From positions 1 to 48,742 of the forward strand of contig JAMONX010000027.1 of the NCBI GenBank assembly GCA_027066435.1: 48,742 nucleotides of DNA, written 5' to 3'. Shown here piece by piece: positions 2 through 48,212 of this stretch; the first letter of the stretch is position 1; each line of letters starts with the position of its first letter. The DNA comes from Campylobacterales bacterium (GTDB lineage: Bacteria > Campylobacterota > Campylobacteria > Campylobacterales > QNZT01). Under the pieces are notes generated by a model that was not told the DNA's origin, made no database searches, and saw nothing but the letters and a program-made list of their open reading frames with translations. The position numbers were made by a program, and so were the translations under genes.

Positions 2-2545
2 GTTCCACTAAAACTAAAAGAACAATCAAAACTTCAAGAGCAAAATATATCAAATGAACTTTATAAAAAATACTCCAGTTTAAGAGCTAAACTTTTTGAA
101 AATATAGTAAAAAACAACCCTCATATAAACAAACTAACTCTACTGTTAAAAACACAAACAATTTTGGATCGTTTGGTATTTGTATTTTTCGCTGAAGATC
201 GTGGGATATTGCCACTAAATACCATCAAAGCAATCATCGATAGATACAAAGATGATATCGAAGATAGGTCGCTTTATCATTTTTACAAGATATACTTTAA
301 AGCTATCAATGAGGGAAATGCTAAACTAAATATCCCTGAATACAATGGCGGACTATTTGCCAAAGATGAGATACTAGAAGAGTTGATAATAGACGATGAA
401 ATCATCAATGCTCGTCCACTAGAGATAAGTGGATATGACTTTAACACCGATATAGATGTCAACATACTTGGACATATCTTTGAAAACTCACTCTCAGATA
501 TCGAAGAGATGAAAGCCAACATAGAAAACCAAAGCTTTGACAAAACAAAAAGTAAACGAAAAAAAGATGGAGTGTTTTACACCCCAGAGTACATCACAAA
601 ATACATAGTTGACAATACACTAGGTAAGCTATGTCATGAAAAAAAAGTAGAGCTAAAAATTGACAATATAGAGATAAGCATCCCAAAAACTAAAAGGCTT
701 AACCAGCGTGAAAAAGAACTTTTACTCAAACTTGAATCTTACAGAGAGTTTTTGCTAAATCTCAAAATCCTAGATCCAGCTTGTGGAAGTGGTGCATTTT
801 TAAACCAAGCATTAAATTACCTATTGCAAGAACATGATTTTATAGATGAGGGCATAAAAACTCTCATGGGAGGAAATGTACTAGGGCTTTATGATGTCAA
901 AAAAGGCATCCTTGAAAATAATCTTTATGGTGTAGATATAAACTCCGAAGCGGTGGAGATAGCCAAGCTTAGTTTGTGGCTGAGAACTGTGGAGCATGGG
1001 AGAAAGCTAAATATCTTAAGCGGAAAAGTTAAAGTTGGGAACTCTTTGATAGATGATAAAAGTGTAGCTGATGATGCTTTTGTTTGGGAAGAGGAGTTTA
1101 AAGAGGTTTTTGAGAATGGTGGGTTTGATGTTGTTATTGGGAATCCGCCTTATGTGAGGCATGAGTATATTACAGAGATAAAACCAGCATTAAAAAAATA
1201 CCAAGTATATGCAGGAACTGCTGATTTGTTTGTTTACTTTTTTGAACTTGCCACTAAGCTTTTGAAAAATGATGGAATGAATGGGTATATATGCTCAAAT
1301 AAGTTTTTCAATGCAACTTATGCTGAAAATTTGAGAGAATATATTTTAAATAATACCACTATAAAACAGATAATTGACTTTAAAGGTAAACAAGTTTTTG
1401 ATGATGCTACTGTTGAGAGTACAGTAACTATTTTTCAAAAAAGTAAACCAAATAAAGATAATTATTTTCAAGTTATTAATGCTGATTTAGTAGAAGCATA
1501 TGAAATGAAGCAAACTGATTTAAATTTATCTAGCTTTACATTGTTAAACCCTAAAAAGATACTTTTGATGCAAAAGATGGAGAAAGTTGGTGTGCTCCTA
1601 AAACAATGGGATATTGATATCAAATCAGGAATTAAAACGGGTTTCAATGAAGCGTATATCATAGATGGTGATAAAAAAGAAGAATTAATAAAGCAAGATG
1701 AAAAAAATGCAGAAATTATAAAACCACTTTTACGAGGACGAGATATAAAAAGATATGGATATGAATTTGCTGATAAATGGTTGATAAATATACATAATAA
1801 TCCTTCTATTGATATAGCAGAATATCCAACTTTAAAAATTTACTTTGATAAATATATTGATAAATTAAAAAGCCGTAGTGATAAAGGTAAAACAATTTAT
1901 AACTTAAGAAATTGTGCTTATTTAGATGATTTTCAAAAAGATAAAATTATGTGGTTAGAATTAACTGATAATCCAAAGTTTGTTTTAGATAAATCGAAAT
2001 ATTTGTTAGAAATGACAGTTTTTTTTATTGTTGGTAATAAACTAAATTATTTGTTAGCATTACTAAATTCAAAAGCTGTGTTTTGGTATTTTGATTTAAT
2101 TTGTAATGAATCAGGAGTTGGAACAAATAGATGGAAAAAAATTTATGTTGAAAGATTACCGATATCCCCAGTTTCAGATGAAAACGAAAAAATCTTTATC
2201 GAGAAAACAGATCTTATAATGGATTTAAATCAAACTTTCCAAAACAAAAAACAAAAATTCCTCAAACGATTAGAAGGCAATTTCGATATAGCCAAGCTAT
2301 CCAAAAAATTAGAAGCATTTTACAATTTAGATTTCAAAACTTTCCTAAAAGAGCTAAAAAAGAAAAAGGTTATATTAACTCTCATGCAACAAGACGAGTG
2401 GGAAGAGTATTTTGAAAGCTATCAAAAAGAGCTTTTAGAGATAAGGGCTGAGATTGATAAGACTAACAAAGAGATAGATGAGATGGTTTATGAGTTGTAT
2501 GGGTTGAGTGAGGAGGAAGTGGCTGTAGTTGAGGGTAAAGTATGA
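2..2545 (+). CDS. Type IIG (Eco57I-like) restriction-modification enzyme, 5' truncated by window edge
   Basis: The frame is open from base 2, so the true start lies left of the window; 847 residues are visible. In order they show the conserved block RLVFVFFAEDRGILP (about 169-213), the KKDGVFYTPEYI methyltransferase motif X (about 562-600), AdoMet-binding DPACGSGAF (about 773-800), acidic motif YGVDIN (about 929-946) and the N6-adenine catalytic NPPY (about 1142-1153). A target-recognition half follows, opening with KPLLRGRDIKRYG near 1722-1760, then a charged coiled-coil tail. Members of this family methylate adenine and cleave DNA with one polypeptide; the nuclease domain is normally N-terminal and is therefore probably off the edge. 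The stop overlaps the next gene by ATGA, so the two are translationally coupled. The class is confident; the target sequence cannot be read from here. Confidence 0.9.
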   Translation, partial: VPLKLKEQSKLQEQNISNELYKKYSSLRAKLFENIVKNNPHINKLTLLLKTQTILDRLVFVFFAEDRGILPLNTIKAIIDRYKDDIEDRSLYHFYKIYFKAINEGNAKLNIPEYNGGLFAKDEILEELIIDDEIINARPLEISGYDFNTDIDVNILGHIFENSLSDIEEMKANIENQSFDKTKSKRKKDGVFYTPEYITKYIVDNTLGKLCHEKKVELKIDNIEISIPKTKRLNQREKELLLKLESYREFLLNLKILDPACGSGAFLNQALNYLLQEHDFIDEGIKTLMGGNVLGLYDVKKGILENNLYGVDINSEAVEIAKLSLWLRTVEHGRKLNILSGKVKVGNSLIDDKSVADDAFVWEEEFKEVFENGGFDVVIGNPPYVRHEYITEIKPALKKYQVYAGTADLFVYFFELATKLLKNDGMNGYICSNKFFNATYAENLREYILNNTTIKQIIDFKGKQVFDDATVESTVTIFQKSKPNKDNYFQVINADLVEAYEMKQTDLNLSSFTLLNPKKILLMQKMEKVGVLLKQWDIDIKSGIKTGFNEAYIIDGDKKEELIKQDEKNAEIIKPLLRGRDIKRYGYEFADKWLINIHNNPSIDIAEYPTLKIYFDKYIDKLKSRSDKGKTIYNLRNCAYLDDFQKDKIMWLELTDNPKFVLDKSKYLLEMTVFFIVGNKLNYLLALLNSKAVFWYFDLICNESGVGTNRWKKIYVERLPISPVSDENEKIFIEKTDLIMDLNQTFQNKKQKFLKRLEGNFDIAKLSKKLEAFYNLDFKTFLKELKKKKVILTLMQQDEWEEYFESYQKELLEIRAEIDKTNKEIDEMVYELYGLSEEEVAVVEGKV

Positions 2546-46953: not shown

Positions 46954-47463
46954 ATGAAACATAAAAATATATTTTTTTTACTAATAGCAACACTTTTATT
47001 TACAGGGTGTACAGCAAAGACAAAAGGTTTTATTGAAGATATGTATTCAGAAACAGAGACGATAAGTGCAGATAATCAAGACTATACAGTAAATTATGAT
47101 AAAAAAAGACAAACTATTAAGAAAGTAATCAAAAAAGATGAAAATTTAGAATCAAGAACTACTCTAAATAATAATTATATCAGTGATGCATCCAATATTT
47201 ATCAAGGCGAGGGGAAAATCATAGACGCAAGTTTTGATAAAGATGTAAATTTATATATTTATGTATTTTTACAAAGTGGAGAATCAAATCCAATAACATT
47301 TTATTACGATAAAGATTTACGCCCAATTGGAAATATACTTTCCATTACAGTAAAAGACAATTTTTTAATAAAAGTTTCAAAAGAGAGTTCAAGTAGAACT
47401 AATCAAAAAAGAATAAAATCAAAGATAAAACCTCCAATTGTTGAAAAAATTAACACTTTATAG
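46954..47463 (+). CDS. Small hypothetical lipoprotein
   Basis: 169 residues with a good AAGGAG site. The signal peptide ends in lipobox LLFTGC (about residue 20), so the mature part is lipid-anchored and probably periplasmic. The rest is a beta-rich domain (YLYIYVFLQSGESN-like strand region, FYYDKDLRPIGNIL) with a basic C-terminal tail. I recognise no named family. Confidence 0.7.
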   Translation: MKHKNIFFLLIATLLFTGCTAKTKGFIEDMYSETETISADNQDYTVNYDKKRQTIKKVIKKDENLESRTTLNNNYISDASNIYQGEGKIIDASFDKDVNLYIYVFLQSGESNPITFYYDKDLRPIGNILSITVKDNFLIKVSKESSSRTNQKRIKSKIKPPIVEKINTL

Positions 47464-47486
47464 AGCGATACTGTTGTGATTAACTT

Positions 47487-47623
47487 TTTGTTTACTTTAG
47501 TATCTTATACTTTCAGAGTAAACAAATTCATTCAACACTCCTTTTGAATGTAAGAGGTTCTATAGATGCGGGTCTTAGAACTTTTTACGCTGTTAGCTGG
47601 CATTTGCGGAACTGTCGGCTAAC
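47487..47623 (+). ncRNA. Candidate structured RNA: four consecutive hairpins before yigZ
   Basis: The 185-bp gap holds four stems in a row. H1 47487-47526: 10-bp perfect outer arms TTTGTTTACT/AGTAAACAAA plus inner AGTAT/ATACT. H2 47529-47550: CATTCAA/TTGAATG. H3 47552-47586: 11 pairs AAGAGGTTCTA/TAGAACTTTTT, two of them G-U, 13-base loop. H4 47592-47623: 11 continuous pairs GTTAGCTGGCA/TGTCGGCTAAC, two G-U, 10-base loop. The loops of H3 and H4 both contain GCGG. G-U pairs favour the plus strand as the RNA. H1 or H3 (with U5) could end lipoprotein transcription. It matches no riboswitch class I could recall. Confidence 0.5.
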
Positions 47624-47648
47624 AATCTAGCAAAGGTATTCTAATCAA

Positions 47649-48212
47649 ATGTTACTTACAAGCAAAACAACATCCAAAAGATACGAAGTAAAAAAATCAC
47701 TCTTCATATCATATCTTACACCAATAAAAGAGTTCAAAAGCCTTTTAAAAGATTTAAAAAAAGAACATCCAAAAGCCTCCCACATCATCTATGCATATCG
47801 AACTTTAAATGAATATGAACAAATAGTTGAAAATTCTAGTGACGATGGAGAACCAAAAGGATGTGCAGGAGCTCCAACACTCGCAGTACTTAGAGGGGAT
47901 AATATAATTGAAAGTGCCGTCATAACTGTTCGATATTTTGGAGGGGTTAAGCTTGGTACTGGTGGAATGATACGAGCTTACACTAATGCTTGTCAAGAGG
48001 TTATAAAATCATCTAAGCTTGAAACTTATGAAAAAAAATTCCTTGTTACATTTGATATACCATATAGTTTAAACAATAGATATGAACACTTCTTTAATAG
48101 TGAAAAAATCTCATATTTAGATAGAAAGTTTGAAACAAACTCTATTTTGTGGTCACTTCACTTAACAAAAGATGATATTGAAAGATTTGAAAAATTTAAA
48201 CGATCGCTTTAA
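47649..48212 (+). CDS. yigZ: YigZ/IMPACT family protein
   Basis: 187 residues. The UPF0029 signature is clear: FISYLTPIKEFKSLLKDLKK, HPKASHIIYAYR, SSDDGEPKGCAGAPTLAVL and TVRYFGGVKLGTGGMIRAY; a C-terminal DUF1949-like domain follows. Bacterial members are of uncertain function, possibly translation-related. AAAGG lies 12 bases before the ATG. Confidence 0.92.
   Translation: MLLTSKTTSKRYEVKKSLFISYLTPIKEFKSLLKDLKKEHPKASHIIYAYRTLNEYEQIVENSSDDGEPKGCAGAPTLAVLRGDNIIESAVITVRYFGGVKLGTGGMIRAYTNACQEVIKSSKLETYEKKFLVTFDIPYSLNNRYEHFFNSEKISYLDRKFETNSILWSLHLTKDDIERFEKFKRSL

Follow-up and report, generated by a model that had tools for sequence, protein, structure and literature searches.

The enterobacterial RNAs MicA, RybB and VrrA are small RNAs (sRNAs) that repress outer-membrane proteins (OMPs); they depend on Hfq and end in U-run terminators. 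CsrA sponges of the CsrB/RsmZ type carry many ANGGA motifs in hairpin loops. In Helicobacter pylori, which belongs to the Campylobacterota, RNA regulation operates without Hfq or ProQ (PMC8322730). There, the trans-acting sRNA NikS (HPnc4160) represses several outer-membrane proteins (PMC8035401, PMC8322730), and RepG (HPnc5490) recognizes the tlpB leader by base-pairing to a G-repeat (PMC8322730).

The element analyzed here is located in the window, by which we mean the whole stretch of 48,742 nucleotides of a Campylobacterales bacterium that was analyzed (contig JAMONX010000027.1). The explanation that we favor, and regard as probable, is that it encodes a new antisense sRNA that is confined to the family and acts independently of Hfq. 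Like NikS, it would be an sRNA of Hfq-less Campylobacterota that pairs with the leaders of OMP mRNAs, a likeness by description in which the targets on our side are predicted ones; unlike NikS, it has tandem UGCGG hairpins and is restricted to one family. It would share with RepG the phylum and the pairing with leaders in the absence of Hfq, but RepG targets a G-repeat, whereas the element here is complementary to a Shine-Dalgarno (SD) sequence plus AUG. The logic in common with MicA, RybB and VrrA would be that an antisense RNA pairs with the start region of envelope genes and represses them; these RNAs use Hfq and U-run terminators, whereas the element here would act without Hfq and shows no U-run after H4.

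Genomic position and distribution of the element

The intergenic gap that holds the element (47464-47648) is bounded by a lipoprotein gene (46954-47463) and by yigZ (47649-48212), whose product matches Pfam UPF0029. Four plus-strand stems lie inside this gap, and the features of the region are as follows.

47480-47496, plus strand: direct repeat TTAAC-N6-TTTACT with an 11-bp period, likely an OmpR/PhoB-type regulator site or a periodic promoter element
47487-47526, plus strand: inverted repeat H1, which overlaps the promoter, is probably outside the RNA and is without meaningful covariation
47506-47511, plus strand: -10 box TATACT of the predicted sRNA promoter, at a fixed distance from the repeat
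47515-47623, plus strand: predicted sRNA of about 109 nt with putative ends, based on the match to covariance model R1 and on covariation
47515-47549, plus strand: 5' antisense segment AGAGUAAACAAAUUCAUUCAACACUCCUUUUGAAU, which hardly varies across the family and is the reverse complement of SD plus AUG
47530-47549, plus strand: hairpin H2, 6 pairs, loop CACUCCUU at 47536-47543
47550-47588, plus strand: hairpin H3, loop AUGCGGGU, GCGG at 47568-47571, 95% of cells paired
47592-47623, plus strand: hairpin H4, loop UGCGGA, GCGG at 47606-47609, 99.4% of cells paired
47638-47643, minus strand: TAGAAT, remnant of a promoter-like box just past H4 that homologues conserve as TATAAT

Downstream of yigZ, near the contig end, 48301-48654 encodes a truncated IS256-type (mutator-family) transposase, whose match to the Pfam model is confined to its first quarter.

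When the neighboring genes of the homologues were compared, yigZ was found directly 3' of the element only in the window and in genome G003. In most homologues the gene at this position is a ccs-type cytochrome c biogenesis gene, and in G007 it is a cytochrome bd-type gene (both named by eye). On the 5' side, ribD and the lipoprotein gene, also named by eye, are retained in most homologues. Because the downstream genes vary, we do not regard the element as a leader or riboswitch of yigZ. Judged by sequence, it has the properties of a free-standing RNA, namely conserved promoter-like elements of its own and a varying downstream gene.

The original prediction had named an Rfam scan as one way to check the region. 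No class was found: Rfam 15 gave no matches over the window at the gathering score, and at E <= 10 the region gave weak, chance-level matches of which none was meaningful. When 149 genomes were searched at the DNA level, almost every member of the window's GTDB family gave a strong match. The core, TTCATTCAN{0,1}ACACTCCTTTT, is present in its proper setting in 19 of the 22 family genomes, and G003 contains a variant of the core from which two bases are deleted, so that 20 of the 22 contain the element. It is absent from G018 and G016, both of which are incomplete (85% and 65%). A core match in G015 was rejected: the remaining element is absent, and the other strand, near the contig end, resembles by eye a gene start (MNYFSEISR...). 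In a screen of the genomes of 84,980 species for the core pattern, all matches were MAGs of the family except for two records that belong to unrelated organisms. The covariance model R1, built from 13 seed sequences, matches the window with 109.9 bits (E 2.2e-21), the window sequence itself being part of the seed. Over 399 genomes of the order it detected nothing convincing beyond the family; G039 and G371 gave matches with E about 0.05 at this search size, which we attribute to chance. No match to the element was found in plasmids and phages, nor a second copy in its own genome, where one further match (G000:C58) looks like coding sequence. The loci L028-L036 of other families match the promoter weakly; they correspond to other genes or unrelated candidate sRNAs and not to homologues. 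On these sequence comparisons, the element is a real, new, family-specific structured RNA. It is most likely an sRNA, whose transcription we infer from its sequence.

Promoter, fold and covariation

The spacing of the TTAAC-N6-TTTACT repeat is fixed in every homologue not cut by a contig end, and TATACT is conserved in all homologues except L026 (TAAACT). The exact combination TTAAC-N6-TTTACT-N9-TATACT occurs at most once per genome, and only at the element. An 11-bp repeat beside a -10 box with no clear -35 would suit a regulator of the OmpR/PhoB family. The same bases lie within H1, which the original prediction had counted as the first of four RNA stems. As an RNA hairpin H1 was rejected: it shows one double change only and no meaningful covariation, its outer pairs are disrupted in as many as 9 of the 18 sequences compared, and it holds the conserved promoter-like element. 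Because H1 is unsupported and overlaps the promoter, the likely transcript is the one of about 109 nt at 47515-47623. Its 5' end is likely near 47515, as judged from the -10 box, and its 3' end likely at 47623 or beyond, as judged from the end of H4. No U-run terminator was seen after H3 or H4 in the window sequence.

Similar promoters were also seen elsewhere. In genus g5, a copy of the direct-repeat promoter with one mismatch precedes an ExbB-like gene (L115, L135, L139), and in G008 and G007 such a copy precedes a ClpS-like gene (L133, L140; both genes named by eye). Intergenic stretches of other families, L029 (G074, about 1300-1560, minus strand) and L030 and L031 (G122, G047), contain a similar direct repeat, a GC-rich stem and a U-run, and are candidates for other sRNAs with a similar type of promoter.

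The plus strand of 47487-47623 (137 nt) folds with -46.8 kcal/mol, compared with -24.9 +/- 3.2 for shuffled sequences (z = -6.84; none of 200 as good). The fold of four stems nearly filling the gap was recovered as predicted, and H1 to H4 could be placed, although H1 does not stand as an RNA hairpin. H4 has the 11 continuous pairs originally ascribed to both H3 and H4, plus 2; H3 instead has 13, with 4 more past a bulge. The GCGG common to both loops is present as predicted, and the G-U pairs noted in the stems are real and fix the strand, the reverse strand folding with z = -2.06 only.

Covariation was analyzed in 13 homologues from genera g1 and g5. In H3 and H4, 97.7% of the pair cells are kept, and 11 pairs (3 in H3, 8 in H4) show changes on both sides in a total of 35 cells, which none of 500 shuffles matched; in a control with partners slid, pairing was only 32-56%. 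When the same pairs are read as plus strand, 416 of 426 cells are paired; read as minus strand, only 351 are, because 67 cells are G-U. This dependence on G-U pairing indicates that the selected molecule is the plus-strand RNA. From the covariation, H3 and H4 are confirmed as RNA helices. Compensatory changes in homologous gaps, which the original prediction had set as its own test, are clear, and together with the empty Rfam result they support its "possible new structured RNA".

The loops AUGCGGGU (H3) and UGCGGA (H4) are near constant while the stems drift; the H3 loop is invariant in the 13-sequence alignment, and the H4 loop is missing in L024. The pairs of H2 are invariant across the 13 sequences, and its hairpin form is thus beyond the reach of covariation. 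In five g3/g4 sequences RNAalifold likewise recovered H4 together with a portion of H3, and double changes were present. These genera carry an additional inserted hairpin, and the 3' half of H2 can form other pairs in their folds: in the minimum-energy or centroid folds of three of the four complete g3/g4 sequences, this half, UUUUGAAUAA in whole or in part, pairs with a UUAUUCAAA-like stretch past H3, leaving CACUCC free. In g2 and g6 the GCGG hairpins are absent, while the promoter and the antisense core remain. In L026 (G006, genus g2), at about 1366-1500, the place of the GCGG hairpins after the antisense core is taken by another hairpin, which has a U-run and a loop with one CU-rich side.

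The 5' antisense segment and candidate targets

Conservation peaks in the 5' antisense segment and H2, and not in H3/H4. The best conserved part of the element, UUCAUUCAACACUCCUUUUGAAU, complements a ribosome-binding site plus start codon; reverse-complemented, the constant 5' segment reads AAAAGGAGUGUUGAAUGAAUUUGUUU, which is such a site with its start codon. No Hfq passed the cut-off in the 22 family genomes, and because of this the pairing would be Hfq-independent.

A genus search for genes with AAAGGAGTG before ATG identified the same protein in four genomes, which from its sequence we take to be an outer-membrane beta-barrel/SPOR protein. Its orthologues in other genera were found by protein search and not by their start region. 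Because the four g1 orthologues came from the SD pattern, only those of the other genera provide an independent test, and not a wholly independent one for G020, whose OMP had also surfaced in an earlier complement search. Candidates were ranked against sampled stretches or genes. In this ranking, in which the CAU of the bait favors every start codon and any strong SD lifts the duplex score, the start region of the G020 OMP (-25.9 kcal/mol) beats all 200 sampled G020 genes. The duplexes of G021 (-22.2), G013 (-21.2), G018 (-20.1) and G019 (-19.9 kcal/mol) are each stronger than that of the best G020 background gene (-19.8), and are followed by those of G007 (-19.5) and G009 (-17.4 kcal/mol). 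Over 13 orthologues, of which those sharing a genus are not mutually independent, the mean is -17.8 kcal/mol; it is -12.4 when the sequence flanking the anti-SD core of the bait is shuffled, and none of 1000 such baits reached the mean of the real one. The duplex of the window genome's own OMP is unremarkable (rank 44 of 142), and that of G003 is poor. An antisense mode of action is, in our estimate, fairly probable for the RNA, and the outer-membrane beta-barrel/SPOR mRNA is a tentative target, for which the odds are somewhat below even; it is the best lead, strong in genus g5 and weak in the genome of the window.

A direct search for SD plus AUG complements with up to 3 mismatches yielded mostly unrelated genes. 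A UbiD-like gene, whose start resembles the antisense segment in G147, was rejected, as none of ten family orthologue starts was below -12.6 kcal/mol. A complement search also yielded L083 (G012:C35), a NapD-like gene whose start, AAAAGGAGTAATGAATGAAT, strongly complements the sRNA arm (-22.0 kcal/mol); this gene is a possible further target in G012.

Alternative explanations and significance

In the explanation that we favor, a free-standing plus-strand sRNA of about 109 nt, limited to one uncultured Campylobacterales family, would be driven by the conserved promoter with its OmpR/PhoB-like direct repeat. Its 5' part would expose CACUCC inside the segment complementary to SD plus start codon, and would most likely pair with the ribosome-binding sites of trans-encoded mRNAs, blocking their translation without Hfq. 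H3 and H4 would be stable stems displaying two copies of the conserved UGCGG loop, which probably protect the RNA and/or act as a second contact site. The mRNA of the outer-membrane beta-barrel/SPOR protein would be a plausible target, at least in genus g5.

The minus strand could itself provide the functional RNA, a short mRNA transcribed from the TATAAT box, to which the plus-strand RNA would be the antisense in a type I toxin-antitoxin or leader-peptide arrangement. Opposite the 5' segment there is indeed an ORF of 8 codons (MNLFTLKV) with a perfect SD, AAAAGGAG, at ideal spacing. Past H4, 11 of 17 homologues have an exact TATAAT on the minus strand, compared with 7.9% in shuffles; when up to one mismatch is allowed, TTTAA-N11..13-TATAAT is present in 13 of the 17, compared with 6.7%. 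These rates serve as a guide only, the kinship of the homologues inflating the comparison. However, the ORF is not kept, being MNLFTV in L026 and shifted in frame to MNFVYEVKYRGLK in L027 (both by eye), and for this reason we take the 5' segment as antisense; a conserved toxin ORF opposite an antisense RNA was not found. Moreover, the hairpins are kept as plus-strand RNA (the 67 G-U cells), and the window, L020 and L022 have only a weak box, which makes this arrangement quite improbable. The conserved box does mean that an antisense transcript over the element is possible in relatives. A constitutive minus-strand RNA might then titrate or degrade the sRNA in these relatives, an overlapping pair that adds to the antisense sRNA reading and does not replace it. 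The promoter-like elements on both flanks are conserved and face one another, and the minus-strand box of the homologues resembles the HP1043 box, TTTAAG-N5-TTTAAG (PMC8345958); but the same degradation of the box, its not being seen by eye in g2 and g6, and the inflated comparison leave such a pair rather unlikely.

A sponge that binds CsrA through the H4 loop, which contains GGA, and through GCGG in H3 would fit the detection of CsrA in 21 of the 22 genomes at E <= 0.01 (20 over the cut-off), where Hfq was not found over the cut-off, and the repetition of a loop motif on stems. We consider it improbable to a similar degree as the minus-strand mRNA, as the H3 loop (GCGGG) lacks GGA, H4 has GCGGA rather than ANGGA, and there are two loops only, of which that of H4 is lost in L024; CsrB/RsmZ-type RNAs differ in their many motifs. 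Least probable is that the element is a cis-acting leader or riboswitch of yigZ, or that it simply terminates the lipoprotein gene. In both the window and G003 it does lie just 5' of yigZ, and it shares with guanidine-II (mini-ykkC) RNAs, to which the original prediction had likened it, two hairpins with repeated loop motifs. This direction was not borne out: most homologues have another downstream gene, the element is not tied to any one gene and has its own promoter-like element, its loops are AUGCGGGU and UGCGGA instead of ACGR, conservation peaks outside them, and guanidine-II gave no Rfam match at gathering or at E <= 10. A terminator is further argued against by the lack of a U-run after H3 or H4. 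A two-part regulator, with an antisense arm silencing OMP messages, UGCGG hairpins binding a protein that replaces Hfq in Campylobacterota and a converging antisense RNA as off switch, would extend the antisense sRNA reading, and we regard it as improbable, if slightly less so than the minus-strand mRNA or the sponge.

With model R1 and its 13 seed sequences, the element is ready as a new RNA family. For how sRNAs find their targets in bacteria lacking Hfq and ProQ, an sRNA that is present throughout a family and combines strongly covarying stems with an antisense arm and UGCGG loops that stay constant would offer a direct test case outside pathogens, both for what binds these loops and for whether sRNAs control envelope genes in free-living relatives.
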